Of a stretch of DNA of 38,238 nt, positions 6,960-29,535 are shown one piece after another; within the stretch, counting starts at the first letter, position 1; each line of letters starts with the position of its first letter. A program made the position numbers and the translations under genes. The DNA lies in the NCBI GenBank assembly GCA_016183435.1, contig JACPEQ010000034.1, forward strand, positions 1-38,238, given 5' to 3'. The DNA comes from Chloroflexota bacterium. GTDB lineage: Bacteria; Chloroflexota; Limnocylindria; P2-11E. The notes beneath the pieces were generated by a model. That model was not told the DNA's origin. It saw only the letters and a program-made list of their open reading frames with translations, and made no database searches.

Positions 6960-7738
6960 GACGTTCCGCGCCGGGCGCGCCGCCGCAGCAGCCACAGCAG
7001 CGGGAAGGCGATCAGCGCGTACGCCAGCCCCAGCACCTGCGCCTCCTGGAGCCCGGCGAGCACCACCGGGTCCAGGCGGAGGAACGAGCTCACGAAGCGG
7101 CCCGTCCCGTAGACGCCCAGGACGACGAGGTAGGCGCGGCCCTCCGGGGCCCTGCCGCGGGTGCGGCGCCAGTACGCGTAGGCCGCTGCCGCGATGAGGA
7201 GATCGAAGAGCCCGTCGTACACGACGACGGGGTGCACGAAGGCCGTCTGGCCGAGCGTCTCCGGATGCGTGTACCGGACGCACCACGCGAGCCCCGAGCA
7301 CGCCACGGCGTGGTGCTCGCCGTTGATCACGTCGCCGATCCGGCCGACCGCGAGGCCGGTCACGATCCCGATCGCGGCCACGTCGAGCATGAACCCCACG
7401 GGCAGCCGCATCCACCGAGCGGCGACGATCCCGGCGATCGTCGAGCCGATCGGCGCCGCCGTCACCGCGATCCCGCCACCCGCGAGCGTGAAGATCCGCT
7501 CGGGCGAGTCCGCGTACGTCGCCCAGTTGTCGGCCACGTGACCGAGGCGCGCGGTGATGAGCCCGCCGACGAAGACCGCGATCGCGTACGGGTAGACGCG
7601 CTGGTCGCGGATGAGGTGCCGCGAGAGACGGATGGAGATCAGACCCGCGAGAAGAGAGCCGGCGTACGCGAAGATCGAATGCCACGCGATCCGCACCGTC
7701 CCGATCACGAGATCGGGCGCGAAGGGGATCTCGATCAG
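6956..7738 (-). CDS. lgt: Prolipoprotein diacylglyceryl transferase paralogue 2 (Lgt-like), CTG start
   Basis: Lgt transfers a diacylglyceryl group from phosphatidylglycerol to the lipobox cysteine of prolipoproteins in the membrane. This 260-aa copy has the family signature as 'VGRIGDVINGEHH' and about seven hydrophobic segments, and aligns throughout with the upstream neighbour. The ORF track merges it into a 513-aa frame starting inside the other lgt. Homology begins at '(L)IEIPFAPDLVIG', parallel to the first copy, so the start is CTG 7738, overlapping the preceding stop (CTGA) with 'GGAGGGAG' 8 nt upstream. It lacks the 'AWHG' of copy 1 (it has 'AWHS'), so activity or substrate may differ. 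Confidence 0.85.
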   Translation of the reverse strand: MIEIPFAPDLVIGTVRIAWHSIFAYAGSLLAGLISIRLSRHLIRDQRVYPYAIAVFVGGLITARLGHVADNWATYADSPERIFTLAGGGIAVTAAPIGSTIAGIVAARWMRLPVGFMLDVAAIGIVTGLAVGRIGDVINGEHHAVACSGLAWCVRYTHPETLGQTAFVHPVVVYDGLFDLLIAAAAYAYWRRTRGRAPEGRAYLVVLGVYGTGRFVSSFLRLDPVVLAGLQEAQVLGLAYALIAFPLLWLLRRRARRGTS

Positions 7739-8550
7739 GTGGCGGTCTCCCTCCGGAAGCGGCCGAAGGCGCGGCTCAAGATGCCCGCCTGCAGCAGCGC
7801 GAGCGCGGCGATGGCGACGAGGAGCACGGCCACGGCGACGACCTGGTCCTGGCGCAGGCCCGCGATGGGCGTCGGATCGCCGACGCGGAGATAGCCGATG
7901 AGCCACCGCCCGAGCGCGTACGAGACGAGCCAGGTCCAGAAGATCCGTCCTTCGGGCCGGCGCCACGCGAAGCGGCCGAGGAGCCACAGCACGAGACCGA
8001 CCCCGAGGAGGTCCCAGATCATCTCGTAGCCGATCGCGAGATGGACCGGACCGGGCTGCCCGAGGGTGGCGGGGTTCGTGTACCCGACGCAGATCCGCGC
8101 GACCTCGCAGGGCAGGGCGTGGTGCTCTCCGTTGATGATGTCGCCGATGCGACCGACGCCGAAGCCGAGCCCGATGCCGGCGGCGGCGGCGTCGGCGGTG
8201 CCGCCGATGGGGACGTCGCGGCGCCGCAGCGCGACGAGGAACCCGCCCAGAACGCCGCCGATGGCCGCGCCCCACACGGCGATGCCGCCCGTCCAGATCT
8301 GCGGGACCTGCTCGAGGTGCTGCGAGTAGAAGTCCCAGCGGTCGGCGACGTGCAGCATCCGCGCGCCGATGATCCCGCCGAGCACGCCCCAGGTGGCCAC
8401 CGAGTAGCCTGCGTCCTCGCTGACCCGGCCGCGCAACAGCCGGATGGCGAGCCACACGCCCAGGAAGATCCCGACCGCGGTGAAGATGCCATGCCACGCC
8501 AGCGAGATCGGTCCGAGGTGGATCTCGGGGTCGAACGGGATCTCGATCAA
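7735..8550 (-). CDS. lgt: Prolipoprotein diacylglyceryl transferase paralogue 1
   Basis: 271-aa polytopic membrane enzyme of lipoprotein maturation. It shows the N-terminal 'SLAWHGIF' segment and the Lgt signature in 'GVGRIGDIINGEHH' (usual GRxGNxxNGE; here Asp replaces the first Asn in both copies), followed by 'GYTNPATLGQPGPVHLA'. The track start at 8706 lies inside secA in another frame. I chose TTG 8550, 7 nt after the secA stop, with 'GAGGG' just upstream and the same '(L)IEIPF' N-terminus as copy 2. Likely translated from the prs-secA-lgt transcript. It overlaps lgt2 by CTGA. Confidence 0.9.
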   Translation of the reverse strand: MIEIPFDPEIHLGPISLAWHGIFTAVGIFLGVWLAIRLLRGRVSEDAGYSVATWGVLGGIIGARMLHVADRWDFYSQHLEQVPQIWTGGIAVWGAAIGGVLGGFLVALRRRDVPIGGTADAAAAGIGLGFGVGRIGDIINGEHHALPCEVARICVGYTNPATLGQPGPVHLAIGYEMIWDLLGVGLVLWLLGRFAWRRPEGRIFWTWLVSYALGRWLIGYLRVGDPTPIAGLRQDQVVAVAVLLVAIAALALLQAGILSRAFGRFRRETAT

Positions 8551-8557
8551 CGAGCCC

Positions 8558-11170
8558 TCAACGTCCGTGGCACTTCTTGTACTTCTTGCCGGACCCGCAG
8601 TAGCAGGGGTCATTCCTGCCGAGCTTGCCCTTCGCGGGCGCTGCCCCGTGCGAGCCCCCAGCCATGGCGGCGACCGGCGGACGAGACGGCACGCGCTCGA
8701 GGCCACCGCCGCTCGCGGTGCCCTGGGCGGCGCGCGTCACCCGCTCCTGCTCACGCTGTTGCTCGGTCTCGTCCACGCGCCGCACGCTGACCCGGAGGAT
8801 CATCTGGGCGGCCGTCGTGGCGAGCCGCGCGTTCATCTCCTCCCAGTAGCGGTGCGCCTCCTTCTTGTAGGCGATGAGAGGGTCCTGCTGGCCGTAGCCG
8901 CGCAGGTAGATGCCCTCGCGCAGCTCCTCCATCTGCGTGAGGTGCTCGACCCAGTGCGTGTCGATCGCTCGCAGGAGGACGAGCCGCTCGACCTCGCGCA
9001 TGAGCTCCTCGCCGAGCTCGCGCTCCTTGTCGTCGTACGCCTCGTCGACGATCTCGGCGACGCGACCGAGCAGGTCGTTGCCGGCGTCCTCGAGCTCCGC
9101 GGCGGGGATCTCGCGGCCGATGAGCGCGCCGAGCGCCGCGCGCAGCTGCTCGATGTCGCGCTCCTCGGGGTCGATCGACGCCGCCGCCTCCGCGAGCGCA
9201 GCGGCCTCGTCGTGCAGGAACTCGAGCAGGGTCTCCTTGACCTCGCCCTGCTCGAGGATCTTCCGGCGCTGGCCGTAGATGACGCGGCGCTGCTCGTTCA
9301 GGACGTCGTCGAACTCGAGCGCGCGCTTGCGGATGTCGAAGTTGCGGGCCTCGACCTTGATCTGCGCCTGTGTGATCGCTCCGGTCACCATCTTGGACTC
9401 GATGGGCTGCGAGTCGTCGAACCCGAGCCGGTCCATCAGGGCGGCGACCCGCTCCGACGCGAAGACGCGGATGAGGTCGTCCTCGAGCGAGACGAAGAAC
9501 CGCGACGAGCCCGGGTCGCCCTGGCGACCGGCCCGGCCGCGGAGCTGGTTGTCGATGCGGCGCGCCTCGTGACGCTCGGTCCCGATGACGTGGAGGCCGC
9601 CGAGCGCGACGACACCGTCCCCGAGGAGGATGTCGACGCCGCGGCCGGCCATGTTCGTCGAGACCGTGATCCCGCCCTGCTGGCCGGCCTTCGCGATGAT
9701 GAGCGCCTCGCGCTCGTGGTTCTTCGCGTTCAGCACCTCGTGGTCGAGCCCGTGGCGGTCCATCTCGTCGGAGAGCCGCTGGCTCTTCTCGACCGAGGTC
9801 GTGCCGATGAGGATCGGCTGGCCCTTCTGGTGGCGGGACTGCACGTCGGCGATGATCGCCGCCCACTTCCCCTGCTCGGACTTGTAGACGAGGTCCGGGT
9901 CGTCCCGTCGGACCATCGGCCGGTGCGTCGGGATGACCGTGACCTCGAGCTTGTAGACCTTGAACAGCTCCTCGGCCTCGGTCGCCGCGGTGCCCGTCAT
10001 GCCGGCGAGCTTCGTGTACATGCGGAAGTAGTTCTGGATCGTGATCGTGGCGAACGTCCGGGTCTCGCGCTGGATCTTGACGTTCTCCTTCGCCTCGACG
10101 GCCTGGTGCAGCCCGTCGCTCCAGCGGCGGCCGGGCATCTGGCGACCCGTGAACTCGTCGATGATCACGACCTCGCCGTCCTTGACGATGTAGTCCTTGT
10201 CGCGCTTGTAGAGCGCCCGCGCCTTCACGGCGTTGTCGAGGTAGTGGATCGCGTCCGCGTCGCCGGTGTAGAGGTCGCGCACGTTGAGGAGGCGCTCCGC
10301 CTTGTCGATCCCGGACTCCGTCAGCGTGACCGCGCGGTGCTTCTCCTCGATGACGTAGTCGGTGCCTTCCACCAGGCGCGCGGCCGTGCGCGCGACGCGG
10401 TAGTACGTGTCGGTCGCGTCCTCGGCGGGCGCGCTGATGATCAGCGGCGTCCGCGCCTCGTCGATGAGGATCGAGTCCGCCTCGTCCACGATCGCGTAGT
10501 GGAGCGGCCGCTGCACCATGTCGGTGAGCTGCACGACCATGTTGTCGCGCAGGTAGTCGAACCCGAACTCGCTGTTCTGGCCGTACGTGATGTCGGCGAG
10601 GTACGCCTCCTTGCGCGTGATGTCCCGCCAATGGCGGTGCCGCCAGTCGACGGCGTCGAGCTCGACGGACGGGTCGTGGATCGCGCTCTTGTCGTGGGCG
10701 ATGTAGGCCACGCTCATGCCGAGCGCGTGGTAGATCGGTGCCATCCAGCCGGCGCCCGTCTTGGCGAGGTAGTCGTTCGTCGTCACGAGGTGCGCGCCCT
10801 TGCCTTCGAGGGCGTTCAGGTAGAGCGCGAGCGACGCGACGAGCGTCTTGCCCTCACCGGTCTTCATCTCGGCGATGTGGCCGTTGTGCAGTGCCATGCC
10901 ACCGATGAGCTGCACGTCGAAGTGGCGCTGCTTGTTCGTGCGTTGCGACGCCTCGCGGACCGCGGCGAACGCCTCGCACAGCAGGTCGTCCGGCGCCTCG
11001 CCCTTCGCGAGCCGCTCGCGGAAGATCGCCGTCCGTTGGCGGAGGTCATCGTCGGAGAGCGCGGACATCTCGGGCTCGCGCTCGTTGACGCGCGTGACGA
11101 GCTTGCGGAGCTTCCGCAGCTCGCCCTCGTTCGAGTCGAAGAGACCGCCGATGCGGCCGACGAGGCTCAC
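8558..11170 (-). CDS. secA: Protein translocase ATPase SecA
   Basis: Motor ATPase that drives preproteins through SecYEG. 870 aa, within the usual range. Walker A 'MKTGEGKT' at residues 102-109, DEAD-type motif in 'IVDEADSILIDEARTP', motif 'TNMAGRGVDI' and 'GRAGRQGDPG' of the second nucleotide-binding fold, and the C-terminal zinc/SecB-binding tail 'CYCGSGKKYKKCH'. GTG 11170 is the start, 10 nt after the prs stop; no strong ribosome-binding site is visible. The large plus-strand ORF over the same interval (8444-11221) is a mirror-frame artefact of GC-rich codons. Confidence 0.97.
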   Translation of the reverse strand: MSLVGRIGGLFDSNEGELRKLRKLVTRVNEREPEMSALSDDDLRQRTAIFRERLAKGEAPDDLLCEAFAAVREASQRTNKQRHFDVQLIGGMALHNGHIAEMKTGEGKTLVASLALYLNALEGKGAHLVTTNDYLAKTGAGWMAPIYHALGMSVAYIAHDKSAIHDPSVELDAVDWRHRHWRDITRKEAYLADITYGQNSEFGFDYLRDNMVVQLTDMVQRPLHYAIVDEADSILIDEARTPLIISAPAEDATDTYYRVARTAARLVEGTDYVIEEKHRAVTLTESGIDKAERLLNVRDLYTGDADAIHYLDNAVKARALYKRDKDYIVKDGEVVIIDEFTGRQMPGRRWSDGLHQAVEAKENVKIQRETRTFATITIQNYFRMYTKLAGMTGTAATEAEELFKVYKLEVTVIPTHRPMVRRDDPDLVYKSEQGKWAAIIADVQSRHQKGQPILIGTTSVEKSQRLSDEMDRHGLDHEVLNAKNHEREALIIAKAGQQGGITVSTNMAGRGVDILLGDGVVALGGLHVIGTERHEARRIDNQLRGRAGRQGDPGSSRFFVSLEDDLIRVFASERVAALMDRLGFDDSQPIESKMVTGAITQAQIKVEARNFDIRKRALEFDDVLNEQRRVIYGQRRKILEQGEVKETLLEFLHDEAAALAEAAASIDPEERDIEQLRAALGALIGREIPAAELEDAGNDLLGRVAEIVDEAYDDKERELGEELMREVERLVLLRAIDTHWVEHLTQMEELREGIYLRGYGQQDPLIAYKKEAHRYWEEMNARLATTAAQMILRVSVRRVDETEQQREQERVTRAAQGTASGGGLERVPSRPPVAAMAGGSHGAAPAKGKLGRNDPCYCGSGKKYKKCHGR

Positions 11171-11180
11171 GCGCTATTCG

Positions 11181-12164
11181 TTACCGGACGCGGAGCGGCA
11201 ACTGCACCGTCGGTGACGTGAACAGGGCTCCCACCGATTCGCCTTCGTGGATGCGCCGGATCGTCTCCGCGAACAACGGCGCGACGGACAGCACTCGGAT
11301 CTTGTCGCTCCTCTTCCCGGGAGCAAGCGGGACCGTGTCGGTCACGACCAGCTCGCGGATCCCCGAGCCGCACAGGCTCTCCGCGGCGCCGCCCATGAGC
11401 AGCGCGTGGACGCACGCCACGACGATGTCCTGGATGCCGCCCTCCTTCAGCGCGTTGACAGTGTTCAGCACCGTGCCACCGGTGTTGATGAGGTCGTCGA
11501 TGATGATCGCGCGGCGGTAGCCGATGTCACCGACGATGTCGACGATCTCGGTCTCGCCGGTGTTGCCGCGACGGCGCTTCTCGACGAAGGCCGTCGGCAG
11601 GCGCAGCTTCTCGGCGAAGTTGCGGCCCTTCTTCGCGAAGCCGAGGTCGGGGACGACGACCACCGCGTCATCTCGCCCGGCGTAGTCGTCGGTGAAGTAG
11701 TTGACGAGCGGCAGGAACGCCGAGAGCTCGTCACCGGGGATGCTGAAGAAGCCCTGGACCTGACCCTGATGCAGGTCCATGGTGAGGAAGCGGTCCGCGC
11801 CCGCGACGCCGACCAGGTCCGCGAGCAGCCGCGCGGTGATGGGCACGCGCGGCTGGTCCTTCTTGTCGCTCTGGCCGTACGCGAAGTACGGCATGACCGC
11901 GGTGATGCGGCCGGCGCTGGCCCGGCGGAAGGCGTCGAGCATGATGAGCAGCTCCATGATGTGGTCCGACGTCCCCGGACCCGAAAGGGACTGGATGACG
12001 AAGACGTCATGCTCGCGCGCGTTCTCCTTGATCTGGACGAAGATCTCGTCATTCGGGAACTTGAACACGTCGGCCCGACCCAGCGGCTGGCCGAGCGCTT
12101 CGGCGACATCGTTCGCGAACTCGGGGTGCGCGTTGCCGGTGTAGACGGAGAGGCCCCGGAACAT
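11181..12164 (-). CDS. prs: Ribose-phosphate pyrophosphokinase (PRPP synthetase)
   Basis: Makes PRPP from ribose-5-phosphate and ATP for nucleotide, His, Trp and NAD synthesis. 327 aa. Family motifs: 'FPNDEIFVQIKENAREHDVF' region, 'YFAYGQSDKKDQPR', the 'MDLHQGQVQGFF' loop, and the PRPP-binding loop 'AIIIDDLINTGGT'. The track start at 12242 is too far upstream. ATG 12164 ('MFRGLSVYTGNAHP') has a perfect 'GGGAGGAGG' 6 nt upstream and matches family length. A dispersed repeat lies about 23 nt above the start. Followed by secA. Confidence 0.96.
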   Translation of the reverse strand: MFRGLSVYTGNAHPEFANDVAEALGQPLGRADVFKFPNDEIFVQIKENAREHDVFVIQSLSGPGTSDHIMELLIMLDAFRRASAGRITAVMPYFAYGQSDKKDQPRVPITARLLADLVGVAGADRFLTMDLHQGQVQGFFSIPGDELSAFLPLVNYFTDDYAGRDDAVVVVPDLGFAKKGRNFAEKLRLPTAFVEKRRRGNTGETEIVDIVGDIGYRRAIIIDDLINTGGTVLNTVNALKEGGIQDIVVACVHALLMGGAAESLCGSGIRELVVTDTVPLAPGKRSDKIRVLSVAPLFAETIRRIHEGESVGALFTSPTVQLPLRVR

Positions 12165-12186
12165 GACGTCCTCCTCCCTTCTCCGC

Positions 12187-12236
12187 ATCAACGGGTCCCC
12201 CGGGCGCGCAGACCGAGGCGCCGGAGCGACGAGGTC
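12187..12236. repeat. Dispersed repeat copy A (upstream of prs)
   Basis: About 50 bp nearly identical to 31345-31394. The core 12195-12223 is 29 bp with no mismatch, flanked by shorter matched blocks. On the minus strand it contains the inverted pair GGCGC/GCGCC around a 10-nt loop. Both copies lie in the same orientation in the 5' region of a minus-strand gene. The surrounding stretch 12237-12322 holds two copies of CCGAGCGAGGG and the divergent start region of the next gene. Confidence 0.75.
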
Positions 12237-12322
12237 GAGCACCCGGGCCCGAGCGAGGGGTCCCCCCGAGCGAGGGTCGGAAAGAAGTGTATGTCCCGGC
12301 CACGGTCCTAGGCTGTATCGGA

Positions 12323-12493
12323 ATGCTCATGCGCTTCGGTCACCGCACCCGCTGGATCGCCGTGTGGGTCCTGCTCGCGGTCTGGTTCGTGGCGCTCATG
12401 ACCGGGCTCGGTGGCGGGCTGGCCAACCTGTTCTTGGTGTTCGCCGTGGTCGTCCTGCTCTACGAGCTCCTCGCGGTCGACCGGCCGGCCTGA
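12323..12493 (+). CDS. Small membrane protein, DUF5670 / lmo0937-like
   Basis: 56 aa from ATG 12323, with two hydrophobic helices split by a glycine turn ('WIAVWVLLAVWFVALM', 'GLGGGLANLFLVFAVVVLL'), the pattern of the lmo0937/DUF5670 family. The track start (12287) adds residues with no membrane or family character. A TAGGCT -10-like hexamer at 12309-12314 lies 8 nt before the ATG, so the transcript may be leaderless; no -35 is recognisable. It is the only plus-strand gene between prfB and the right edge. Its 3' end overlaps the convergent PHP gene by 34 bp. Function unknown. Confidence 0.6.
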   Translation: MLMRFGHRTRWIAVWVLLAVWFVALMTGLGGGLANLFLVFAVVVLLYELLAVDRPA

Positions 12494-13245
12494 CGCGGCC
12501 TTTCGCCGCGCAGGAAGCGCTCCTCCGGGAGCGCCGCGTCGCGGATCATCGCCTCCGTGCGGTCCAGCGGCCCGATCTCGCCGTGCGCGTCGGTCCCCAC
12601 GGAGAAGAGCGCGCCGCGCTCGCGCGCGCGCACCAGGAAGGCCTGGTGCGGCACGCGATAGGACTCGTTCACTTCGATCGCGACGCGCGCGTCCACGCAC
12701 ATCTCGATGAGACGCCGTTGCCACTCGACCGGGAAGCTCTCCTCGGGATCCCCGAGCGCGGCCAGCGGCGAGAACGTCGGGTGGCCGACGATGTCGATGC
12801 CGACCTCCTCGATCCCCTGCCGCACGAGGGCGAGCGTGCTCTCGAGGATGCGGCGCTGGAGCGCGGCGTCGGCGAAGCGCGTGGCCTCGGCGAACGGCAA
12901 GGAGCCGCGCTGCCCCTTCAGGAACGCACCGGCCTCGTCGAATCCGACGCGGACGCCGTCGAGGTGCACCTGATGGACAGCGCCGATCGTGTAGTGCAGC
13001 GCCGCGCGCGTGCTCGGCCGCAGCGGCGGTGCGACGCCGAGGTCGTACTCGATGCCGACGCGGAGGCCGAGCCGCGCGGCGTCGTCGAGGTAGCGCAGGA
13101 CGTCGTCGTCGTCGCGCATCTTGTCCCGCCACGGGAAGTGATCGGAGACACCGTGCGGCCGCACCGCCACGCTGCGCGCCCGGTCCTCGAGAGACAGGCG
13201 GCCATCGCTTCGCTCGGTGTGGACGTGGTGATCGAAGAGGGTCAG
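12460..13245 (-). CDS. PHP-domain metal-dependent phosphoesterase, CTG start
   Basis: Polymerase/histidinol-phosphatase superfamily hydrolase, 261 aa. The first metal-binding motif 'DHHVHTERSDG' lies upstream of the track start (GTG 13170), so the gene must begin earlier. The only NUG codon before it is CTG 13245, which overlaps the previous stop as CTGA with 'GAGGAGG' 4-5 nt upstream. Other metal ligands: 'HGVSDH', 'GIEYDL', 'GHPTFSP', and 'GTDAHG' near the end. Substrate unknown: histidinol phosphate, nucleotide or oligonucleotide phosphate are possible. The C-terminus overlaps the convergent small membrane gene. Confidence 0.85.
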   Translation of the reverse strand: MTLFDHHVHTERSDGRLSLEDRARSVAVRPHGVSDHFPWRDKMRDDDDVLRYLDDAARLGLRVGIEYDLGVAPPLRPSTRAALHYTIGAVHQVHLDGVRVGFDEAGAFLKGQRGSLPFAEATRFADAALQRRILESTLALVRQGIEEVGIDIVGHPTFSPLAALGDPEESFPVEWQRRLIEMCVDARVAIEVNESYRVPHQAFLVRARERGALFSVGTDAHGEIGPLDRTEAMIRDAALPEERFLRGERPRQAGRSTARSS

Positions 13246-14351
13246 GCCGCCTCCTCGGGATGCCCGGCCCAGGCGGCCTCGACCATCGTCCAGAGGACGC
13301 CCGAGACGAGCGCCTGCCCTCCGAGCAGGAGCGGCATGCCGACGTCGCGCGCCGCGGCGGTGAACTCCCGCAGAGCCGGGTGCGCGATCGCCTCCGCATC
13401 GAACAGGTCGGAGGCGAAGCGCTCCGCGGCCGTCGGCCGCCAGCCGAGGTGGGCGAACAGCACGCGCGTGTCGAAGAGCATCCCGTCACCGAGCTCGCGC
13501 ATGCGCTCGAAGAACGCGCGCGGGCCGACCTGCTGGTAGAGGAACCCGAGGGCGGTCCGCGCGCGGCCCGACACGTCCCGCCCAGCGGCCTGCATCCCTC
13601 GCTCCTCCGCGAGCATGCGCACGCGACAGGCCGTCTGCGACTCGAGGTAGGTCCACACCGGCGCGCCGACGCGGCCCGCGACGAGCAGCTCGCGCTCCGG
13701 CGTCGTGATCAGCCGCATGAGCGCGTCGACCCGTGACCCGAGCTCCTTCTCCCACACGTCGAGCTGCGCGACCCCGCGCGGGCAGGCCGGGTGGCGACGG
13801 AGCACGGTCGCGTCGGCGGGCGTGTCCACGTCGAGCAGCGTCGCCGACGACCGGACGAGCTGCCGCGATGGCAGCCCGGCCTGCTGATGCAGCAGCCGCG
13901 GGAGCGGATTGTCCGCCGCGGGCAGCGCGATGGCGCGAAGGGCGCTCGTCGGCGTGAAGGCGACGAGATCGGCCGAGTAGTAGTTGTTCGACAGCACGAG
14001 AGCATCGCTGCTCTCGAGCTCGATGCGGATCGCGCGCAGCTGCTCCACGTCGAGCAGCGCGCCGGCGCCGGCACCGATCGCCAGGACGCGGTCGAGCCTG
14101 CGGGCCTCGATGATCCGCGCGAGCTCGCTGCCGAAGTGGAACGGCTGCGTCTCGCTCTCGTCGACGGCGGCGCCGGCGGAGGAGAACGCGGCGCTGGCCT
14201 CGTCGTCGCGCGTGACGGCGACCACGGGGTCGAATCCCGCCTCGATCGCGCGCCGCAGGAGGGTGCGCCCGATGGCGACGCGGATGCCGTCGAGCCGGCG
14301 CTCGACGTCGCCCGTCCCGCCGCGGCCGAAGAAGACGAGGAAGCCGGTCAC
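13242..14351 (-). CDS. Nucleotidyltransferase-like protein of unknown function
   Basis: 369 aa from GTG 14351. The N-terminal ~190 residues look like a nucleotide-sugar or MobA/CofC-type transferase fold: 'GRTLLRRAIEAGFDPVVAVT', 'DRVLAIGAGAGALL', 'DALVLSNNYYSADLVAFTP' and 'LLDVDTPAD' resemble the order in NTP_transf proteins, but the usual glycine-rich GxGxRMG loop is not clear ('FGRGGTGD'). The C-terminal half is helical ('GFLYQQVGPRAFFERMRELGDGML') and I do not recognise it. It overlaps the PHP gene by CTGA, implying translational coupling. Exact reaction not assignable. Confidence 0.6.
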   Translation of the reverse strand: MTGFLVFFGRGGTGDVERRLDGIRVAIGRTLLRRAIEAGFDPVVAVTRDDEASAAFSSAGAAVDESETQPFHFGSELARIIEARRLDRVLAIGAGAGALLDVEQLRAIRIELESSDALVLSNNYYSADLVAFTPTSALRAIALPAADNPLPRLLHQQAGLPSRQLVRSSATLLDVDTPADATVLRRHPACPRGVAQLDVWEKELGSRVDALMRLITTPERELLVAGRVGAPVWTYLESQTACRVRMLAEERGMQAAGRDVSGRARTALGFLYQQVGPRAFFERMRELGDGMLFDTRVLFAHLGWRPTAAERFASDLFDAEAIAHPALREFTAAARDVGMPLLLGGQALVSGVLWTMVEAAWAGHPEEAA

Positions 14352-16048: not shown

Positions 16049-16683
16049 TCGTCCACCGCGATGACGTACGCGCGGACATCCCGCGCGCCGCCCGCGCGCG
16101 CGGCGATCGCGGCGGCGTGGCACGTGGCACCTGTGGTCGTGACGTCGTCGACGATCGCGACGCGCAGTCCGCGAAGCGATCCCGCCTCGGAGACGAAGGC
16201 GCCGTCGACGTTGCTCGCTCGCTCCGCGCGATCGAGCTCCACCTGCGGACGCGTGTGCCGGATGCGGTGCAGGGCCGGGAGCACGGGCAGTCCGGTGCGA
16301 CCGGAGACCTGCGCTCCGAGCAGCGCCGCCTGGTCGTAGCCGCGCGCTCGCACGCGCTCCCGGTGCAGGGGCACCGGCACGACGGCGTCGATCCGCGCCC
16401 CCAGGGCAAGGTCGCCTGCGACCATTCCGGCGACGAGCTCGCCGAGCTCCTGCGTCAGCCCCCGCTCGTCCCGGTACTTGCACCGCTGGATCGCGAGCCG
16501 GAGAGGCCCTTCATAGGCCCCCGCGGCGTGGAAGGACAGACCGCATGAGCGGAACGACCTCGGCTCCAGGGCGTGCCGGCATTCGAGGCAGAACCAGGAG
16601 CCGGGCCTGTCGCAGCCGGCGCACAGCGGCGGGACCAGCGCGGTCGCGCTCGCCACCGCGACGGCGCGGGCCAGGTCCTTCAT
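16045..16683 (-). CDS. comF: ComF family phosphoribosyltransferase-like protein
   Basis: 212 aa. N-terminal zinc-finger-like cysteines ('CAGCDRPGSWFCLECRHAL') followed by the family block 'YEGPLRLAIQRCKYRDERGL', 'DAVVPVPLHRERVRARGYDQA', and the PRPP-type loop 'RVAIVDDVTTTGAT'. ComF proteins act in DNA uptake during competence or in amidophosphoribosyl-type reactions; the cellular role varies. ATG 16683 ('MKDLARAVAVAS') overlaps the DUF192 stop (ATGA, reading CATGC region at 16680-16683). A link with the adjacent pilus locus (type IV/Tad pili and DNA uptake) is suggestive but unproven. Confidence 0.9.
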   Translation of the reverse strand: MKDLARAVAVASATALVPPLCAGCDRPGSWFCLECRHALEPRSFRSCGLSFHAAGAYEGPLRLAIQRCKYRDERGLTQELGELVAGMVAGDLALGARIDAVVPVPLHRERVRARGYDQAALLGAQVSGRTGLPVLPALHRIRHTRPQVELDRAERASNVDGAFVSEAGSLRGLRVAIVDDVTTTGATCHAAAIAARAGGARDVRAYVIAVDE

Positions 16684-17030
16684 GCGATCTGGAGGACGTC
16701 CCCCGCTTGCGTCCCGGTCCGCTCCGCGGTGCCTGCGGGCAGCTCGATCACCGCGTCGGCGCCGCGCGCCATGGTCACGGGCACCCATGGTCGCAGCCGC
16801 GAAGCGACCCGCACGACGCGCAACGCGCGGTCCACGAACACGGCGTCGATGGCGGATCGCATGAACAGCATGGTGATCATCGACGTCCTCGTGATGAGCA
16901 GCGCCTCACCGCGGCTCAGGCCGGAGCGTCCCAGGAGACCGATGCCACGAGAGAGAAAGTCGTCGGCAACGGAGCAATGCGTCGCCAGGGTCGTCCCGCG
17001 GGTGGTGTTCTCGATCCGGATCTGCCTCAG
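16680..17030 (-). CDS. DUF192 family protein, CTG start
   Basis: 116 aa. The family hallmarks are 'IENTTRGTTLA' at the N-terminus, 'RGIGLLGRSGLSRGEALLI', 'AIDAVFVDRALRVVRV' and the C-terminal 'VIELPAGTAERTGTQAGD'. The track start (16880) removes the first 50 residues of the domain. The only NUG start before the conserved N-terminus is CTG 17030, overlapping the tadC stop as CTGA. No Shine-Dalgarno is evident, so re-initiation after tadC is likely. Function of DUF192 is unknown. Co-transcribed with the pilus genes. Confidence 0.85.
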   Translation of the reverse strand: MRQIRIENTTRGTTLATHCSVADDFLSRGIGLLGRSGLSRGEALLITRTSMITMLFMRSAIDAVFVDRALRVVRVASRLRPWVPVTMARGADAVIELPAGTAERTGTQAGDVLQIA

Positions 17031-21679: not shown

Positions 21680-21710
21680 CACCGCGAGGATATCCCCTCT
21701 TCCCGGCGAG

Positions 21711-22202: not shown

Positions 22203-22224
22203 GGACCCCTCCTGATGCCAGAAC

Positions 22225-22246: not shown

Positions 22247-22317
22247 GCCGGCCCCGCCGAAGACTAGAAGACCGACGTCAGGTCGTTGATCTCGGCTCGC
22301 GCCTTGACCGCCGCGGA

Positions 22318-23304: not shown

Positions 23305-24431
23305 GCCCGCCGCGCGACGCCCGGCGTGGCGGTCACGCCGATCGCTGCGGGCCGCTCCCAGATGCCCGGGATCCGCGTGGCGCACTCGGGGCACGACCCC
23401 CGCGTCGGCGTGAGGCGGTCCTCGAGGATCGTGTACCCGAGGCGCCGCACCAGCGTCGCGCCGCAGCCGTGGCAGCGCGTGTCCTCGTACGGCCCGACGC
23501 GCCCGGGCACGTTCCCGCAATAGACGTAGCGGAGCCCCTGCTCGAGCCCGATCTCGGCGGCACGCACGAGCGCCCGCGCGGCGGTGCCGGCGCGGTCGGT
23601 CATCTTGTAGTCCGGGTGGAACGCCGTGACGTGCCACGGCATGAGCGGGTCGACGCTCGCGAGGAAGCGCGCCGCGTCGCGGATCTCCTCCTCTGAGTCG
23701 TTGAGGCCGGGCACGAGGAGCGTGACGATCTCGACCCAGAGGCCGCGGCGCTTGAGCCCGCGGATCGTCTCGAGAACGCTCTCGAGCTTCGCGCCGAGCT
23801 GGCGGTAGCCCGCGTCGCGCATCGCCTTGAGGTCGACCTTGTAGCAGTCGAGATGCGGCCGCAGGAAGTCGAGCACCTCCGGCGTCGCGTTGCCGTTCGA
23901 GACGAACGCGCGGACGAGGCCGCGCTGGCGGCCCTCGTCCATGACCGCCGCGCCCCACTCGCTCGTGATGAGCGGCTCGTTGTACGAGCTCGCGATCATG
24001 GCCGCGTCGTAGCGCACGGCGAGATCGGCGAGCTGCGTCGCCGTGATCTCCTCCGGCGGGACCTGCGCGTGGTCGTCGCGCAGCGCCTGCGACGTCAGCC
24101 AGTTGTGGCAGTACGGGCAGTGGAGGTCGCATCCGAGCATGCCGAAGGTCAAGGCATCACTCCCGGGCAGGACGTGGAAGAACGGCTTCTTCTCGATCGG
24201 ATCGCACTGGAGCGCGCCGACGTACCCGAGGGGGACACGCAGCTCGCCATCGCGGTTGAGGCGCACCTGACAGATGCCGCGCTGCCCGGGGAGGACCATG
24301 CAGCGGTGGCCGCACGCGAGGCAGCGGATCCGCCCCCGGTCCTCCGCTCGGGTGAGCTCGCGCGCGGCCGGAGCGGTGAGCCGGTCCAAGACATCGGCAA
24401 GCGTTCTCGCGGCGTCGGGGACCCGAGGCAC
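23301..24431 (-). CDS. amrS: AmmeMemoRadiSam system radical SAM enzyme
   Basis: 376 aa from GTG 24431, with 'GGAGGAGG' about 6 nt upstream. The [4Fe-4S]-SAM motif is 'CDLHCPYCHNW' near residue 100. An N-terminal 'CLACGHRCMV' cluster and a C-terminal pair 'CHGCGATLV' / 'CPEC' suggest extra metal sites. 'SYNEPLITSEW' and 'NGNATPEVLDFL' are pyruvate formate-lyase-activase-like features typical of AmrS. Substrate unknown; genomically tied to Memo and AMMECR1. Confidence 0.88.
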   Translation of the reverse strand: MPRVPDAARTLADVLDRLTAPAARELTRAEDRGRIRCLACGHRCMVLPGQRGICQVRLNRDGELRVPLGYVGALQCDPIEKKPFFHVLPGSDALTFGMLGCDLHCPYCHNWLTSQALRDDHAQVPPEEITATQLADLAVRYDAAMIASSYNEPLITSEWGAAVMDEGRQRGLVRAFVSNGNATPEVLDFLRPHLDCYKVDLKAMRDAGYRQLGAKLESVLETIRGLKRRGLWVEIVTLLVPGLNDSEEEIRDAARFLASVDPLMPWHVTAFHPDYKMTDRAGTAARALVRAAEIGLEQGLRYVYCGNVPGRVGPYEDTRCHGCGATLVRRLGYTILEDRLTPTRGSCPECATRIPGIWERPAAIGVTATPGVARRA

Positions 24432-24445
24432 GGGACCTCCTCCGG

Positions 24446-24508
24446 GTCATTGTCCTCCGAGCAGGGACATCAGCGACGGGCCGAGGAACACGACCAGCAG
24501 CGCAGACG
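24446..24508 (-). pseudogene. C-terminal fragment of a tadC-like gene
   Basis: The last 20 codons of a T2SSF protein: 'ASALLVVFLGPSLMSLLGGQ' and a stop, directly before the ribosome-binding site of amrS. It mirrors the end of TadBC 0.9 kb away ('PALLIVFLGPPLLSLVQ'), and the DNA is visibly similar with substitutions. The VapBC-like pair lies between the two copies. A relic of a duplicated or replaced tadC. The rest of the stretch 24509-24609 shows no recognisable gene. Confidence 0.65.
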
Positions 24509-24609
24509 CGAACGACCTCGTACGAGCAGGGTTCCCGGGGTCGAGCGGACCGCGGGCTCACGAGCCATGGAGCGCGTCGAGCCTCGCGGCGTCGATGACG
24601 CGGCCGGAC

Positions 24610-25035
24610 CTACGTCGTCGTGCCGGTCCGGCCCCTGTACGCCGACAGTGGAAGCGCGATCGCGGCGGCGACCTCCAGAACGCGCTCGTCGTCGGAGATC
24701 AGTCGCGCGCCGAGGCCATCCGCGAGCGCGACGTACGCAGCGTCGTACGCGGTCAGACCGTGGGCGGTCCACGTGGCGACGCGATCGATCGAAGGCTCGC
24801 TGACGCTGAACGCGAAGCGCGTCAGGTCGACCGCCAGCTGCTGCACCGCGGACGCGTCCCACGACCACCGCCGCGCGGCAGCGTTCAGCAGCTCGAGAGA
24901 GAGCAGCGACGGTACCGAGATCGAGAGGCGGCCCGCCGCGTAGTCCTCGCGGACGACCTTCGCCTCAGCGCCGTGGCGCTGCTGCGGGCGGAACCACTTG
25001 AAGACGACGGACGCGTCGAGCACGACGGCTGTCAC
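24610..25035 (-). CDS. vapC: PIN-domain toxin, VapC-like RNase
   Basis: 141 aa. PIN fold with acidic active-site residues visible in 'VVLDASVVFKWF' (first Asp), 'SLLSLELLNAA' (Glu), 'LTAYDAAYVALA' (Asp) and 'LISDDERVL' (C-terminal Asp). VapC toxins cleave tRNA or rRNA, bound and silenced by the antitoxin encoded just upstream. GTG 25035 overlaps the antitoxin stop by GTGA. TA pairs commonly move horizontally; here it sits between two tadC ends. Confidence 0.88.
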   Translation of the reverse strand: MTAVVLDASVVFKWFRPQQRHGAEAKVVREDYAAGRLSISVPSLLSLELLNAAARRWSWDASAVQQLAVDLTRFAFSVSEPSIDRVATWTAHGLTAYDAAYVALADGLGARLISDDERVLEVAAAIALPLSAYRGRTGTTT

Positions 25036-25289
25036 CGCTCATCCCGCATCCGGCGGATCACGAGGGTGAGGTCCTCTGCGGGAACGGGATTCCGCTCGAA
25101 GAGGTCGTCGACCGACGCCAGGGCGGCGCGCACGGACGGGTCCGCTCCCGGGCCTTTCTCGCTCGCGAGATCCGCGACGGCCAGCTGCTCGACGTACGCG
25201 CTGCGCGTCAGGCCGCGCCGTTTCGCGGCGCGGTCGATCCGCGAGACCACCCGTTGGTCGAGAGAGAGCAGGACCTTCCTCGTCGCCAC
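25032..25289 (-). CDS. vapB: Ribbon-helix-helix antitoxin, VapB-like
   Basis: 85 aa from GTG 25289 ('MATRKVLLSLDQRVVSRIDR'). The beta-strand plus two helices ('RRGLTRSAYVEQLAV') is a ribbon-helix-helix DNA-binding motif; the acidic C-terminal part would bind the toxin. The track start at 25328 lies inside the end of tadBC and ahead of the promoter, so I prefer 25289. A TATACT hexamer ends 7 nt before the GTG and no ribosome-binding site exists, which suggests leaderless translation. The protein likely represses its own promoter. Confidence 0.82.
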   Translation of the reverse strand: MATRKVLLSLDQRVVSRIDRAAKRRGLTRSAYVEQLAVADLASEKGPGADPSVRAALASVDDLFERNPVPAEDLTLVIRRMRDER

Positions 25290-25295
25290 CGACGC

Positions 25296-25311
25296 AGTAT
25301 ATCTGGGATAT
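25296..25311 (-). promoter_or_regulatory. Antitoxin promoter (-10 TATACT) with overlapping inverted repeat
   Basis: TATACT (25301-25296) is followed after 6 nt by the GTG start, fitting a leaderless mRNA. It overlaps ATATC-TGG-GATAT (25299-25311), a perfect 5-bp inverted repeat and a likely operator for the ribbon-helix-helix protein. The AT-rich patch stands out sharply in this GC-rich window. No clear -35 is seen. Confidence 0.55.
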
Positions 25312-25324
25312 CCACAGGTCCGCC

Positions 25325-26398
25325 TCACTGCACGAGCGAGAGCAGCGGCGGACCGAGGAACACGATGAGCAGCGCGGGCAGGACGCAGAAGGTCAGCGGG
25401 AACAACATGAGGACCGGCAGCCGGCGCGCGGCAGCTTCCGCGCGACGCCGATCCGCATCGCGCAGGGCGTCGGCCTGGATCACGAGCAGATCCGCCAGCG
25501 GCGCGCCGAACCGCGTGGACGACGCGATGAGCGCCGCGACTCGCGCCTCGGCCGGCCCCGACGCCGCGAACGCGCCGAAGGCCCGGCGCGCGCCCTGGCC
25601 GAGCGCGAGGTCGGCGAGGAGCCGGCGAGCTTCGGGCAGGCGGCCGACGGCCGGAGCGCGCACGACCAGCGCGCGCAGCGCCTGCTCGAAGGTCATGCCC
25701 GAGTCGAGGCCCACGACGACCGCGTCCAAGAGCGATGCGAGGGCGGAACCGGTCGTTGGGACGCGAAGGAGGCGCCGCAGCCAGATCGCGGCGATGGCCT
25801 CGAGGACGACCGCCGCTCCGAGCATCGCGCGCCCGGGGCCGACGAGGATCGCCACGTAGTCGGGCATCGAGAAGGCGAAGAAGACCGCGCCGAGCGGCGC
25901 GAGCAGGACGAGCACCGCCGCCGAGACGCGTCCCTGCGCGGTCAGGGCGGCCTGCTCGTCCGCGAGCGCGAGCCGGCCCCGCAGCAGCGACGCGACGCGC
26001 GCCAGGCTCCGCGACACGCGGCCGCCGGCGCGGGTGAAGGCCCCGAGCACGATGGCGATGGGCGCGACGTCCTCGTCGGCGACGGTACCGCGGTATGCGA
26101 CGAGCGCGTCATCGAGCCGCACGCCGAGCGCGAGCGATGCCGCCACTCGGCGGGTCGGCGCCGCGAGCGCCGCCGGAAGCGCGGGCGCGACCTCCGCGAA
26201 GGCCTGCGGGAGCGACAGTCCGCTGCCGAGCGCCGAGGCGATCGACTCGACGAGGCCCGGCAGCGCCGCACGACGGTCGCGCCGCCAGTGGCGCCGTTCG
26301 ACCAGAGCCCCCCATCGCCGCACGAACGGCGCGGGCGCGCCAGGCACGAGCGCGACCGCGGCGGCGACGAGCGCCGCGGCGACGAGGACGAGGGTCAG
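25325..26398 (-). CDS. Fused TadB-TadC membrane platform protein of the second tad locus, CTG start
   Basis: 357 aa with two T2SSF domains in one chain. The first is 'LPGLVESIASALGSGLSLPQ' to 'DEQAALTAQGRVSAA', the second 'LLDAVVVGLDSGMTFEQAL' to 'STRFGAPLADLLVIQADALR', followed by a TadC-like end. In the first locus these are separate genes. Translation begins at CTG 26398, overlapping the tadA remnant stop as CTGA; the N-terminal helix 'LTLVLVAAALVAAAVALV' would be broken by any later start. The track shows it fused in frame with the tadA N-terminus, an artefact explained by the tadA deletion. Confidence 0.82.
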   Translation of the reverse strand: MTLVLVAAALVAAAVALVPGAPAPFVRRWGALVERRHWRRDRRAALPGLVESIASALGSGLSLPQAFAEVAPALPAALAAPTRRVAASLALGVRLDDALVAYRGTVADEDVAPIAIVLGAFTRAGGRVSRSLARVASLLRGRLALADEQAALTAQGRVSAAVLVLLAPLGAVFFAFSMPDYVAILVGPGRAMLGAAVVLEAIAAIWLRRLLRVPTTGSALASLLDAVVVGLDSGMTFEQALRALVVRAPAVGRLPEARRLLADLALGQGARRAFGAFAASGPAEARVAALIASSTRFGAPLADLLVIQADALRDADRRRAEAAARRLPVLMLFPLTFCVLPALLIVFLGPPLLSLVQ

Positions 26399-27406
26399 GT
26401 GCCCACGTCGCGCAGCGAGTAGGGATCGCCGCGCGTGGGGTCGATCTCGGCGATCTGGACGATCCGGCGGCGGCCGTCGCCGTCGCGCTCCTGATGCACG
26501 ACGACGTCGATGCCGTGGCGGATCTGCTCGCGGACGGCCGCGAGCGGGATGTCGATGCCCGCCATGAGCGCCATCGTCTCGAGCCGGATGAGCGCGTGGT
26601 AGGCGCCGTTCGCGTGCGCGGTCGTGAGCGAGCCGCGATGGCCGGTGTTCATCGCCTGCAGCATGTCGAGCGCCTCGCCGCCGCGGACCTCGCCGACCAA
26701 CGTTCTCCTGCGGCAGACGCAGCTCGGCGGCGTCCTCGATGGTCACGACGCGCTCGTGCGCTCCGATCGCGAACGCGAGCGCGTTCAGCGTCGTCGTCTT
26801 GCCGCTGGACGTCCCGCCGGAGACGAGGATGCTGCGGCGCCGTCGCACCGCATCCACCAGGAACGCCATGGCCTCGGCGCTCGCGGTGCCGCCGCGCACG
26901 AGGTCGTCCGGCCCGAGCGGCCGCGCCGCGAACCTCCGGATCGTGAGCACGGGACCACCGAGGGCGATCGGGGGGATCGCGGCATGGACGCGCGAGCCGT
27001 CGGGAAGGCGTGCATCGACGAGCGGGTTCGCGAGGTCGATCCGACGCCCGAGCGGAGCGACGAGCCGCTCGATGAGCACGAGGATCTCCTCCTCGTCGCG
27101 GATCTGGATCGCCGTCCGCTCGAGCTTGCCGTCGCGCTCGACCCAGACGCCGCGCGTGCCGTTGACCATGACCTCGCTCACACGGTCGTCGCGAAGCAGC
27201 GGCGCGAGCTCGCCCAGCCCGAAGAGACGGTCCTCGAACCACCGCTCGAGCGCACGCAGCTCCGTCGACGGCACGACGACGCGCTCGGCGGCGAGCGACT
27301 CGCGCAAGAGCGGAGCGATCTGCTCGCGGCGCGGACGCCCGTCGGGCTCCTCGCGCAGGCGCGAGACCAACGCGCGTTCGAGACGTGCGCGCAGCGCGAG
27401 CGTCAC
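26395..27406 (-). pseudogene. tadA: Broken TadA/CpaF ATPase of the second tad locus (internal deletion and frameshift)
   Basis: Starts GTG 27406 overlapping the tadZ stop. The 5' part reads correctly through 'EVMVNGTRGVWVERDGK', Walker A 'SGGTSSGKTTTLN' and '[13 protein letters not shown]'. Then, near 26700, the frame breaks, and the 3' part resumes in another frame as '[20 protein letters not shown]' to 'SLRDVGT'. Compared with the intact TadA, about 35 residues between the Asp box and Walker B are absent. So this is a roughly 100-nt deletion that also shifts frame, not a single-base slip. Either a genuine pseudogene or a local assembly error; the product cannot be a working ATPase. Confidence 0.8.
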
Positions 27407-28329
27407 GCGATGTCGATCGTGAGGATCTCGGCCAGCTCGTCGTACGCGCGGCCGAGCGCGCCACCCACGATCGATGGACCGCGCACAGCGGCGCGGACGG
27501 CGGCCGGATCGTCCGGCAGGGCGCGGAACGTCGGGTGCGCACCGAGACGCTCGGCGCGGCATCGCGAGGCGATCCACCAGACCCGCTCCTCGTCGATCGA
27601 GGCGTCGATGGCGGACAGTGCCGCCGGGTCGTCGGTGCTCACGACCAGGACCCGGTCGGCGTCGTCGATGAGAGCGCGGGTGCGCTCGTCGAAGAGGGCC
27701 GGCGCGTCGACGAGCACCACGTCGGCGATCCGGACCGCGGCGCGCGCGGTGGCGGCCAGCAGAGGGACGCTCGGCATCGGCGAGACGCCGCCGATGACGC
27801 GCAGCCGCTCGCGCTCCGCGGCGACGACGGCGAGATGCTCCGTGGTGAGCTCTTCGACGAGGCCCTCGAGATCGGACCAGGACCCCGGAGCGAGGCGCAG
27901 CCACCACGCGGCGGAGCCGGAGCCCGTCGCATCCAGGACGAGGACCGAGGCGCGCGCCGACAGCCGCGCCGCGAGTCCGGCCACGAGGAGCGTGCGCCCT
28001 GCCCCTCCGCTCGGTCCGGTGACGAGCACGAGCCGGGTGGCTCCCCGTCGACGCGCGGGCACCGCCGCGGCGACGAGCGGCCCGATGGCTTCCGGTGCGG
28101 CGGACGACGCCATCGGGACGGCGCAGCCGGCTGCGCGAAGCAGCCGCTCCTGCTCGGCGCGTGCGATCGCGACACGCGGGACGTCGGGAGCGATCTCCGC
28201 CGCTTTGCCGACCGCCTCGGGATCGGCGAGGTCGACCAGAACGACCTCCGCCAGCTCATCGACGCGCTCGAGGCCGAGCACCTCGACGGCGTCGTCGAAC
28301 GCAGCGCCGCAGACGGCGACCCGGGTCAT
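27403..28329 (-). CDS. TadZ/CpaE-like ATPase of the second tad locus
   Basis: 308 aa from ATG 28329 (ATGA overlap with the upstream stop). The N-terminal 90 residues are receiver-like in shape but lack recognisable phospho-acceptor motifs. The ATPase part has 'LVLVTGPSGGAGRTLL', a degenerate Walker A (GGAGRT in place of GGVGKT), then 'VLVLDATGSGSAAWWLR' and 'ADVVLVDAPALFDERT'. This matches atypical TadZ proteins that locate Tad pili at the pole. Tightly coupled to the following tadA. Confidence 0.75.
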   Translation of the reverse strand: MTRVAVCGAAFDDAVEVLGLERVDELAEVVLVDLADPEAVGKAAEIAPDVPRVAIARAEQERLLRAAGCAVPMASSAAPEAIGPLVAAAVPARRRGATRLVLVTGPSGGAGRTLLVAGLAARLSARASVLVLDATGSGSAAWWLRLAPGSWSDLEGLVEELTTEHLAVVAAERERLRVIGGVSPMPSVPLLAATARAAVRIADVVLVDAPALFDERTRALIDDADRVLVVSTDDPAALSAIDASIDEERVWWIASRCRAERLGAHPTFRALPDDPAAVRAAVRGPSIVGGALGRAYDELAEILTIDIA

Positions 28330-28745
28330 CGCGTCGAGCGAAGGATCGGGATGAGCGCGAGACCGCGGGCGCGAGCGCTCGCGATGGCGGAGGCGTCCTC
28401 CGCGGTCAGCTCGACGACGAGCGTTCGCTCGTCGACGGCCATCACGCGGACCCCCGCCGCGACGTCGGACGCCGTCGCACGCTCGCTCGGGCGCGCGCCG
28501 AGCAGATCGAGGACGTCGTCGTCACGGAGGCCGGGGATGGGCGCGGAGAGCCAGGCCACCGGGATCGCGAGGGCCCACGTGCGCGGACCGAGACGCTCCG
28601 ACAGCGCAGGCGTCGGTGTCGCCGTCTGCGCCGGCGGCGGGACCGCCACGGTGACAGCCGATGCGGTCGCGAGGAGCAGGGCGGCGACCGCGACGGCCAT
28701 GCGTGGCGTCGGGCCGAGGCGCGGCGCCGCGAGGGAACGGATCAC
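28326..28745 (-). CDS. Membrane-anchored small protein, possibly CpaB/RcpC-like
   Basis: 139 aa from GTG 28745 (GTGA overlap). One N-terminal helix ('MAVAVAALLLATASAVTVAV'), a Pro/Thr linker, then a compact domain ('AIPVAWLSAPIPGLRDDDVL', 'VRVMAVDERTLVVELTAED'). The layout and the position before tadZ fit CpaB/RcpC proteins, which carry an SAF domain, but it is about half their length and I see no clear SAF signature. Treat as a hypothetical pilus-assembly protein. Confidence 0.55.
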   Translation of the reverse strand: MIRSLAAPRLGPTPRMAVAVAALLLATASAVTVAVPPPAQTATPTPALSERLGPRTWALAIPVAWLSAPIPGLRDDDVLDLLGARPSERATASDVAAGVRVMAVDERTLVVELTAEDASAIASARARGLALIPILRSTR

Positions 28746-29146
28746 GGGTTCGAGCCGAGCAGCGCGACGTGCGTCCGCCCGCTCAGCGTCACGTGGACCT
28801 CGATCTCGAAGCCGATGGCGATGACGCGCACGTCAGTTGGATCGGCACGGTCGTGCAGCCGCGCGAGGCGCGCGGCGGCGTGACGCGCCGCTCCGGCGAC
28901 AGCCGGGTCGGCGACGAACACGGCGATCTCGGCGCGACCGAGCTCGCGGCCGAGCGCGCGCACACGGTCGAACTGCAGGTCCGCGACGGCGGTGCCGGCC
29001 GCTGCCGCGGCGGCCTCGCCGGCACGCTGCGCGCGCACTCCGTCGAGGATCCGATGGGACACGCCGCTGAGCCCGACGATCGCGGCGGCCGCGACCCCGA
29101 GGAGGATGGCCGTCAGGACGAGCGCCTGGCCGCGCCCGTCGCTCAG
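28742..29146 (-). CDS. TadG/TadE-like pseudopilin-type protein, probable CTG start
   Basis: 134 aa beginning 'SDGRGQALVLTAILLGVAAA', the glycine-glutamine motif plus helix typical of TadE/TadG proteins that act as minor pilins of Tad systems. Two in-frame starts exist: GTG 29155 (overlaps the previous gene by 13 nt) and CTG 29146, which makes a CTGA overlap, has 'GGAG' 8 nt upstream and gives an N-terminus parallel to the preceding tadE ('MSDDGQALV'). I favour CTG. The C-terminal half ('AIGFEIEVHVTLSGRTHVAL') is beta-rich. Confidence 0.65.
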   Translation of the reverse strand: MSDGRGQALVLTAILLGVAAAAIVGLSGVSHRILDGVRAQRAGEAAAAAAGTAVADLQFDRVRALGRELGRAEIAVFVADPAVAGAARHAAARLARLHDRADPTDVRVIAIGFEIEVHVTLSGRTHVALLGSNP

Positions 29147-29535
29147 GGCGTCCACTCCACCACCCGGGCCGCGGATCCACGCACGGTGACGCTCGGAAGA
29201 CCGGCGAACGACAGCGGGACGGGCACCGTGTACTCGATCGCGACCCGAAGGAGCGTGCCGCGCGGGTCCGCGGATCGCGGCGGGTCGTGCTCGCCGGGCT
29301 CGATCCTGGTACGTACGCGTGCGGGATCGAGCGGCGAGACCGCCGCTGCCACCGCCCGCGCGATCTCCTCGTCGTCGTTCGTCAACGATCCCACGCGGGC
29401 GCCCTCGGCGGCGGCATGCTCGAGCGCGAGCCGCGCGACGCCGATCTCGGAAACGAGGACGATCGCGAGCGCGAACAGCAGGAGGAACGGAAGGACGAGC
29501 GCGAACTCGACGAGCGCCTGGCCGTCGTCGCTCAC
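29143..29535 (-). CDS. tadE: TadE-like pilus protein
   Basis: 130 aa from GTG 29535. 'SDDGQALVEFALVLPFLLLF' is the TadE signature: prepilin-like G-x-ALVEFALVLP followed by one helix, then an extracytoplasmic domain. Overlaps the hydrolase stop (GTGA) and is followed by the TadG-like gene, so these are co-translated. TadE is processed by the prepilin peptidase in known systems; the only such peptidase in the window is in the other tad locus. Confidence 0.85.
   Translation of the reverse strand: MSDDGQALVEFALVLPFLLLFALAIVLVSEIGVARLALEHAAAEGARVGSLTNDDEEIARAVAAAVSPLDPARVRTRIEPGEHDPPRSADPRGTLLRVAIEYTVPVPLSFAGLPSVTVRGSAARVVEWTP

Follow-up and report, generated by a model that had tools for sequence, protein, structure and literature searches.

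CUG as a probable minor start codon, often at stop/start overlaps, in a family of Chloroflexota

Genes and CTGA junctions in the window

The DNA analyzed here (the window) is a stretch of 38,238 bp from a Chloroflexota bacterium (contig JACPEQ010000034.1) and makes up one entire contig of a draft metagenome-assembled genome (MAG; 2.22 Mb, 198 contigs, approximately 90% complete). It contains five CTGA tetranucleotides, all on the minus strand, in which TGA is the stop codon of the preceding gene and CTG is in frame with the next one, that is, with lgt2, a PHP-domain gene, a DUF192 gene, tadBC, or a tadG-like gene (Table 1). An earlier inspection of the DNA (the sequence-only reading) had proposed that these genes start at CUG and that CUG is a routine re-initiation codon in this lineage. 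The geometry of the junction, a 4-nucleotide (nt) overlap (-4 overlap), was present at all five sites and at seven further sites in the genome.

No in-frame ATG, GTG, or TTG codon (the canonical starts) is found upstream near the junction for lgt2, PHP, DUF192, or tadBC. A gene finder that had learned the codon usage of this genome and was blind to start codons placed the onset of coding 3, 2, 6, and 2 codons before the respective CTG, which is at the junction within error. A tadBC protein started at the GTG of codon 18 would lose its first membrane helix. In the whole window there are 14 TGA overlaps in the -4 frame with a coding partner, of which three read ATGA, six GTGA (one of them GTGATG), and five CTGA. 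The description of these four genes and of the remaining GTGA and ATGA overlaps in the sequence-only reading was thus borne out.

Two neighboring genes deserve mention. Compared with that of the relative G001, the tadA gene is approximately 104 bp short: it lacks the segment that separates LPQEN from VGEVRGG, and the frame changes there, so that the gene is broken in the assembly, through either a real deletion or an assembly collapse. The prfB gene carries the classical CTTTGAC programmed +1 frameshift, a motif which recurs in relatives near the locus.

Table 1. Features of the window and CTGA-only genes found elsewhere in the same genome (aa, amino acids)
Feature	Positions	Strand	First downstream ATG/GTG/TTG (codon)	Basis or remarks
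CTGA overlap, lgt1-like stop (gene 7735-8547)/lgt2 CTG	7735..7738	minus		Sequence; CTG also in 14 relatives
lgt2, prolipoprotein diacylglyceryl transferase	6956..7738	minus	11	260 aa from CTG; PF01790, E = 9e-32
CTGA overlap, stop of upstream gene (13242-14351)/PHP CTG	13242..13245	minus		AGGAGG 4 nt before CTG
PHP-domain protein	12460..13245	minus	26	261 aa from CTG; HHVH at codons 6-9; PF02811 below curated cutoff
CTGA overlap, tadC-like stop/DUF192 CTG	17027..17030	minus		CTGA also in G002
DUF192 protein	16680..17030	minus	51	116 aa from CTG; PF02643, residues 19-115, E = 2e-17
CTGA overlap, stop of tadA C-terminal part/tadBC CTG	26395..26398	minus		
tadBC, type II secretion F-domain protein	25325..26398	minus	18	357 aa from CTG; PF00482, two stretches
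CTGA overlap at TadG-like gene	29143..29146	minus		In-frame GTG 3 codons upstream (29155-29153)
TadG-like pilus-assembly protein	28742..29146	minus		134 aa from CTG; no Pfam match
tadA, CpaF-like ATPase	26395-27404	minus		
prfB, release factor 2	~6452-6520	minus		
XPB helicase			69	NF045503 position 1 at residue 8
miaA			26	TIGR00174 position 1 at residue 10
Adenosine deaminase (add)			46	Model position 4 at residue 11
3-Methyladenine glycosylase			27	Model position 1 at residue 7
nuoD			48	Model position 2 at residue 17-21
CopC			31	Model position 1 at residue 27

The junctions among relatives and across the genome

We then compared the junctions with those of related genomes, which are MAGs of uncultured Chloroflexi/Chloroflexota, many apparently of soil and groundwater origin and some from lake water. 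Among the lgt2 starts aligned across the family, 15 genomes including the source genome had CTG at position 1, three had GTG, and one had TTG; in three other relatives, a GTG stands one codon later, at codon 2. The 14 other species with CTG in lgt2 read CTGATC or CTGATA; a canonical start is absent from the 40 codons before the junction, and the first one after it is at codon 10 to 55, mostly 28. Position 1 of PHP was CTG in the source genome, GTG in G009, G004, and G001, and ATG in G012 and G010, while that of tadBC was CTG in the source genome, G001, G019, and G008 and GTG in G023, G022, G025, and G013. At the TadG site, three congeneric species had CTG, and the other relatives mostly GTG, TTG, or ATG. 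That one and the same site reads CTG in some species and another NTG (N, any base) in others lends support to the sequence-only reading. The comparison with relatives also bears on the idea that assembly or sequencing errors conceal normal starts, which would suit a draft MAG with a gap of about 104 bp in tadA. The lgt2 CTGA junction recurs in 14 further, separately assembled genomes, however, and errors would not favor CTG across so many starts, which makes this explanation highly improbable.

The ratio of nonsynonymous to synonymous changes (pN/pS) in the downstream frame dropped at the junctions of lgt2, PHP, and TadG. For lgt2, it fell from approximately 1.0 immediately before the junction to 0.35 in codons 2 to 10, and in the 15 CTG species alone it went from 1.05 to 0.32 from codon 2 onwards. 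For PHP, the corresponding values were approximately 1.0 and 0.25 (0.20 in the CTG species), and for TadG, 1.25 and 0.51. DUF192, with a pN/pS of 0.79, was weak in this test.

The genome-wide scan covered 1.18 Mb of the same genome (about half of it) with 1,138 predicted genes, and a -4 overlap was counted only where the coding onset fell at the junction. Such overlaps read GTGA in 87 cases, ATGA in 73, and TTGA in 8, while in 11 of the total of 179 (approximately 6%) CTG was the only NTG start. The additional CTGA junctions comprised 14 with another canonical start close by and 20 with the sequence CTGATG, at which the natural start is the ATG of the TGATG overlap. Since C is the commonest base before TGA at stops lacking a -4 partner (188 of 350 TGA stops), the use of CTG, measured against its opportunities, is far below that of GTG; a C at this place is expected in itself, and the unexpected part is the absence of a usable start elsewhere. 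As controls, 550-kb parts of high-GC megaplasmids of Azospirillum and Streptomyces were taken through the same pipeline and yielded 1 of 39 and 0 of 40 CTGA-only overlaps, respectively. In the single control case, the true start seems to be an ATG at codon 11, and with this case set to 0 the difference between the genome (11 of 179) and the controls gave P = 0.016 (Fisher test).

The seven CTGA-only cases outside the window encode a CopC-CopD protein, the XPB repair helicase, NuoD, MiaA, a 3-methyladenine glycosylase, an adenosine deaminase, and a FemAB-like protein, and in six of them the family alignment begins before the first canonical codon (Table 1). The count and the alignments thus extend the proposal of CUG starts beyond the window. 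They also argue against translation from the next downstream ATG, GTG, or TTG, with the conserved upstream segment lying outside the protein. The usual start codons are the default, and in the window the GTG at codon 11 of lgt2 would leave the Pfam domain almost whole. Starts of this kind, however, would remove the HHVH motif of PHP, the P-loop of MiaA, the HVH motif of adenosine deaminase, the start of MreB (see below), and 68 residues of XPB; codons 2 to 10 of lgt2 and PHP are under selection at the protein level, and in relatives the next start of lgt2 lies mostly at codon 26 to 28 or later. We consider downstream starts very unlikely.

CTG was not confined to -4 overlaps. Of 835 genes, 113 were flagged as being without a canonical start, several of which are explained by prfB-type frameshifts or by starts further away. 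At the onset codons of the genes without a canonical start, CTG was enriched only 1.15- to 1.3-fold; imprecise onsets blur this enrichment, so that only the association with a Shine-Dalgarno (SD)-like match is informative, such a match being found for 14 of 41 CTG codons versus a background of 16% (P = 0.003). The CTG of mreB, which has an SD-like match, follows directly after an in-frame stop, and position 1 of TIGR00904 aligns with residue 2, while the first canonical codon is codon 19. In cshA, a DEAD helicase gene, AAGGAG lies 6 nt before CTG, model position 1 falls at residue 14, and the first canonical codon is codon 33. Neither gene has a -4 overlap. The mreB case also speaks to ribosomal frameshifting from the upstream gene, which would give fusion proteins with no initiation at all and for which the overlap does place the downstream frame at -1 relative to the stop codon. 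A frameshift could not produce MreB, given the in-frame stop before it; by inspection, moreover, the junction contexts share no slippery heptamer, the same junctions read GTGA or TTGA in relatives, and the one clear frameshift near the locus, the known prfB site, is different in appearance. Frameshifting is therefore hardly credible here.

Points against CUG and candidates for other near-cognate starts

Several observations weigh against CUG as the start codon at these junctions. The window is rich in CTGA (5 of its 14 overlaps), and when it is left out the excess over the controls, which represent portions of two megaplasmids and no complete genome, gives P = 0.06. CTG before A is expected from codon bias, so that conservation of CTG alone says little. 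For TadG, the in-frame GTG three codons upstream is a legitimate start, and the CTG is thus one possible start; the CTGA described by the sequence-only reading is there, while its preference for CTG is ambiguous. The pN/pS of tadBC was weak, 0.95 overall and 0.55 in the four CTG species, with a poorly conserved N terminus, so the case of tadBC relies on the coding onset, the lost membrane helix, and the orthologues with GTG at the same place. Lastly, the DUF192 orthologues of genus g5 (L064, L066, L068 to L070, L073, and L077) mostly lack an NTG in the stretch that runs from the last in-frame stop to the conserved region, and a nearly constant ACG stands one base after the upstream UAG; other solutions to the start of this gene exist.

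To these is added the fact that codon 2 is ATC or ATA in 5 of the 11 CTGA cases (lgt2, miaA, copC, nuoD, and add), which raises the possibility that the true start at CTGATC and CTGATA junctions is AUC or AUA overlapping the A of UGA (a -1 overlap). In nuoD of the source genome, the spacing GGGGAGG-6 nt-ATC favors ATC, as does the aligned codon of five congeners, which reads ATC, ATG, ATA, CTG, and ATG; it is ATA in most genus g5 genomes. The infC gene (L259:5466-6224) has no in-frame canonical start and has ATA beside its N terminus, and the three relatives with GTG at codon 2 of lgt2 point the same way. AUC or AUA is inapplicable, however, to PHP, tadBC, and XPB (codon 2 ACC), DUF192 (AGG), mreB, and cshA, and the lgt2 relatives with GTG or TTG at codon 1 keep ATC or ATA at codon 2. 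As an account of these junctions in place of CUG, such starts seem unlikely, though appreciably less so than the explanations dismissed above.

Near-cognate codons nevertheless appear at individual genes. In cysS, AAGGAGG lies 6 bases before ATC, with a CTG six codons further on as the alternative. The ATA of infC is in keeping with the rare starts for which this gene is known (PMC5472188). The nuoC gene of another family in the class (L320 and L323) reads GGAAGGAG-7 nt-CTG; downstream, its next canonical start comes at codon 42 or, within the Pfam domain, at codon 100; in-frame canonical codons exist here at least 19 codons upstream of the CTG. AUA or AUC fits infC, nuoD, and cysS better than CUG or equally well, so that CUG is apparently not the sole unusual start, and the mreB and cshA starts likewise contradict the view that CUG is specific to re-initiation.

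Some further observations concern the same genes. The nuoD gene appears to start at AUA just past nuoC in L297, L306, L308 to L311, L313, L315, and L318, while other genera have CTG or ATG there. A strict rule of AUA overlapping UAG, drawn from nuoD, was withdrawn: in most genus g5 genomes, the in-frame UAG that ends nuoC lies 3 nt ahead of the AUA, which makes the ATAG there incidental. The source genome holds nuoD twice (L221:5644-6021 and G000:C184:5799-6173; 95% identical over the available part), possibly as a strain variant. At L272 (minus strand, ManC) and L220 (minus strand, LamB/YcsF), the family domain begins well before any canonical start, and the candidate starts are only GTA, ACG, ATC, or an internal CTG.

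Proposed initiation at CUG and relaxed start choice

Taken together, CUG is very probably a real start at the CUGA overlaps of this lineage, where it occurs genome-wide and recurs in most relatives of the family. This reading is built on the CTGA junctions and the lack of other starts there, the onsets of coding and of selection, the early family alignments, and the NTG variation among relatives; from these we infer that CUG is initiated with formylmethionine (fMet), that initiation is coupled to termination of the upstream gene, and that expression is sufficient for function. At least approximately 1% of genes, conserved housekeeping genes among them, would start at CUG and apparently at AUC or AUA, often at stop/start overlaps. 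As CUG also occurs without a -4 overlap and other near-cognates are used, the pattern points to relaxed start choice and not to a dedicated re-initiation codon. We therefore consider it likely that CUG is a working minor start codon in this Chloroflexota family and part of such relaxed choice. The word "routine" in the sequence-only reading was too strong, given the predominance of GTGA and ATGA over CTGA-only overlaps, while CUG starts as such were supported.

As to the initiation machinery, infC was found in the source genome; of 60 relatives, 52 had it, among them all 27 genomes of high quality. The initiation factor 3 (IF3) of the source genome aligns over its full length with solved IF3s and carries a Pro/Ala-rich C-terminal tail of roughly 90 residues. 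Loss of IF3 as a cause was rejected on these grounds. The anticodon arm of the initiator tRNA was not found in the source assembly, which is incomplete; its canonical form, CGGGCUCAUAACCCG, occurs exactly in many family members, including one congener, and from these relatives a changed initiator tRNA has no support as a cause. With IF3 present and the initiator tRNA apparently normal, discrimination, if relaxed in this lineage, would be lowered at the ribosome, by the properties of IF3, or by coupling together with SD strength.

After ending the upstream gene at UGA, a ribosome would re-initiate, using ordinary fMet-tRNA, at the NUG that begins one base earlier; it would be positioned there by the stop codon and, at some junctions, by an SD sequence within the upstream gene. 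A, G, U, or, less often, C could then stand at the first position of the start codon, with the initiator tRNA accepting NUG with any first base at reduced efficiency. Away from overlaps, a good SD sequence could support CUG and apparently AUA and AUC as well. This suggests that at -4 overlaps the site of re-initiation is defined by the stop codon to a greater degree than by the base with which the start codon begins.

Studies of overlapping genes have described termination-reinitiation at 4-nt ATGA and GTGA overlaps (Huber et al. 2019, PMC6728339; follow-up, PMC10666635). As in those systems, the stop here shares bases with the next start in a codirected pair, and the SD sequence can sit inside the upstream gene. 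Those reports name ATGA, GTGA, and TAATG/TGATG/TAGTG, and CTGA appears in neither text, whereas here CTG stands in about 6% of such overlaps. The CTGA sites lack the ATG, GTG (or TTG) start by which such overlaps are recognized, ATGA, GTGA, and TTGA being the majority elsewhere in the genome; as at natural noncanonical starts, homology and selection extend upstream of every ATG, GTG, and TTG. Starts of the latter type are known from Streptomyces sigR, with a single conserved GTC start repressed by IF3, and from infC, which starts at ATT in Escherichia coli and ATC in Streptomyces (PMC5472188). Like the present cases, they are natural and conserved, have a strong ribosome-binding site, and are misannotated by gene finders; unlike them, they are single regulated genes, while here many unrelated housekeeping genes are involved and CTG is the commonest unusual start. 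Initiation complexes on CUG have been described with the E. coli tRNA-fMet variant M1 (PMC11497404), which gives a physical view of CUG in the ribosomal P site with a CAU anticodon and so bears on CUG use here, although that is a laboratory system with a mutant initiator tRNA and the relatives studied here have the usual anticodon arm. In mycobacteria, which are likewise high in GC, an unbiased selection of start codons did not enrich CTG (0.03%), and CTG starts were called scarce (PMC4633059), a result opposite to our inference. A literature search returned no paper linking "CTG start codon" with Chloroflexi. We regard the putative CUG and near-cognate starts of this lineage as a new variant, lineage-wide, of known phenomena.

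It is possible, though somewhat less likely than not, that in the whole family, and perhaps the class, CUG, AUA, and AUC (possibly also ACG or GUA) are ordinary and evolutionarily interchangeable starts of housekeeping genes. If the CUG starts are true, N-terminal peptides such as (M)TLFDHHVHTER or (M)FTKQIGIDLGTANVIVYVR are to be expected. Bacterial starts are held to be nearly universal (AUG, GUG, and UUG), and gene callers have this built in. The genome scan, the relatives, and the protein families all support the warning of the sequence-only reading that callers restricted to these codons would miss CUG starts, and if CUG, AUC, or AUA is the start of approximately 1% of genes or more, many conserved proteins of these bacteria would be truncated or lost in public annotation. 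The lineage would then offer a natural test of the parts played by IF3, the ribosome, and stop-start overlaps in the stringency of start-codon choice.

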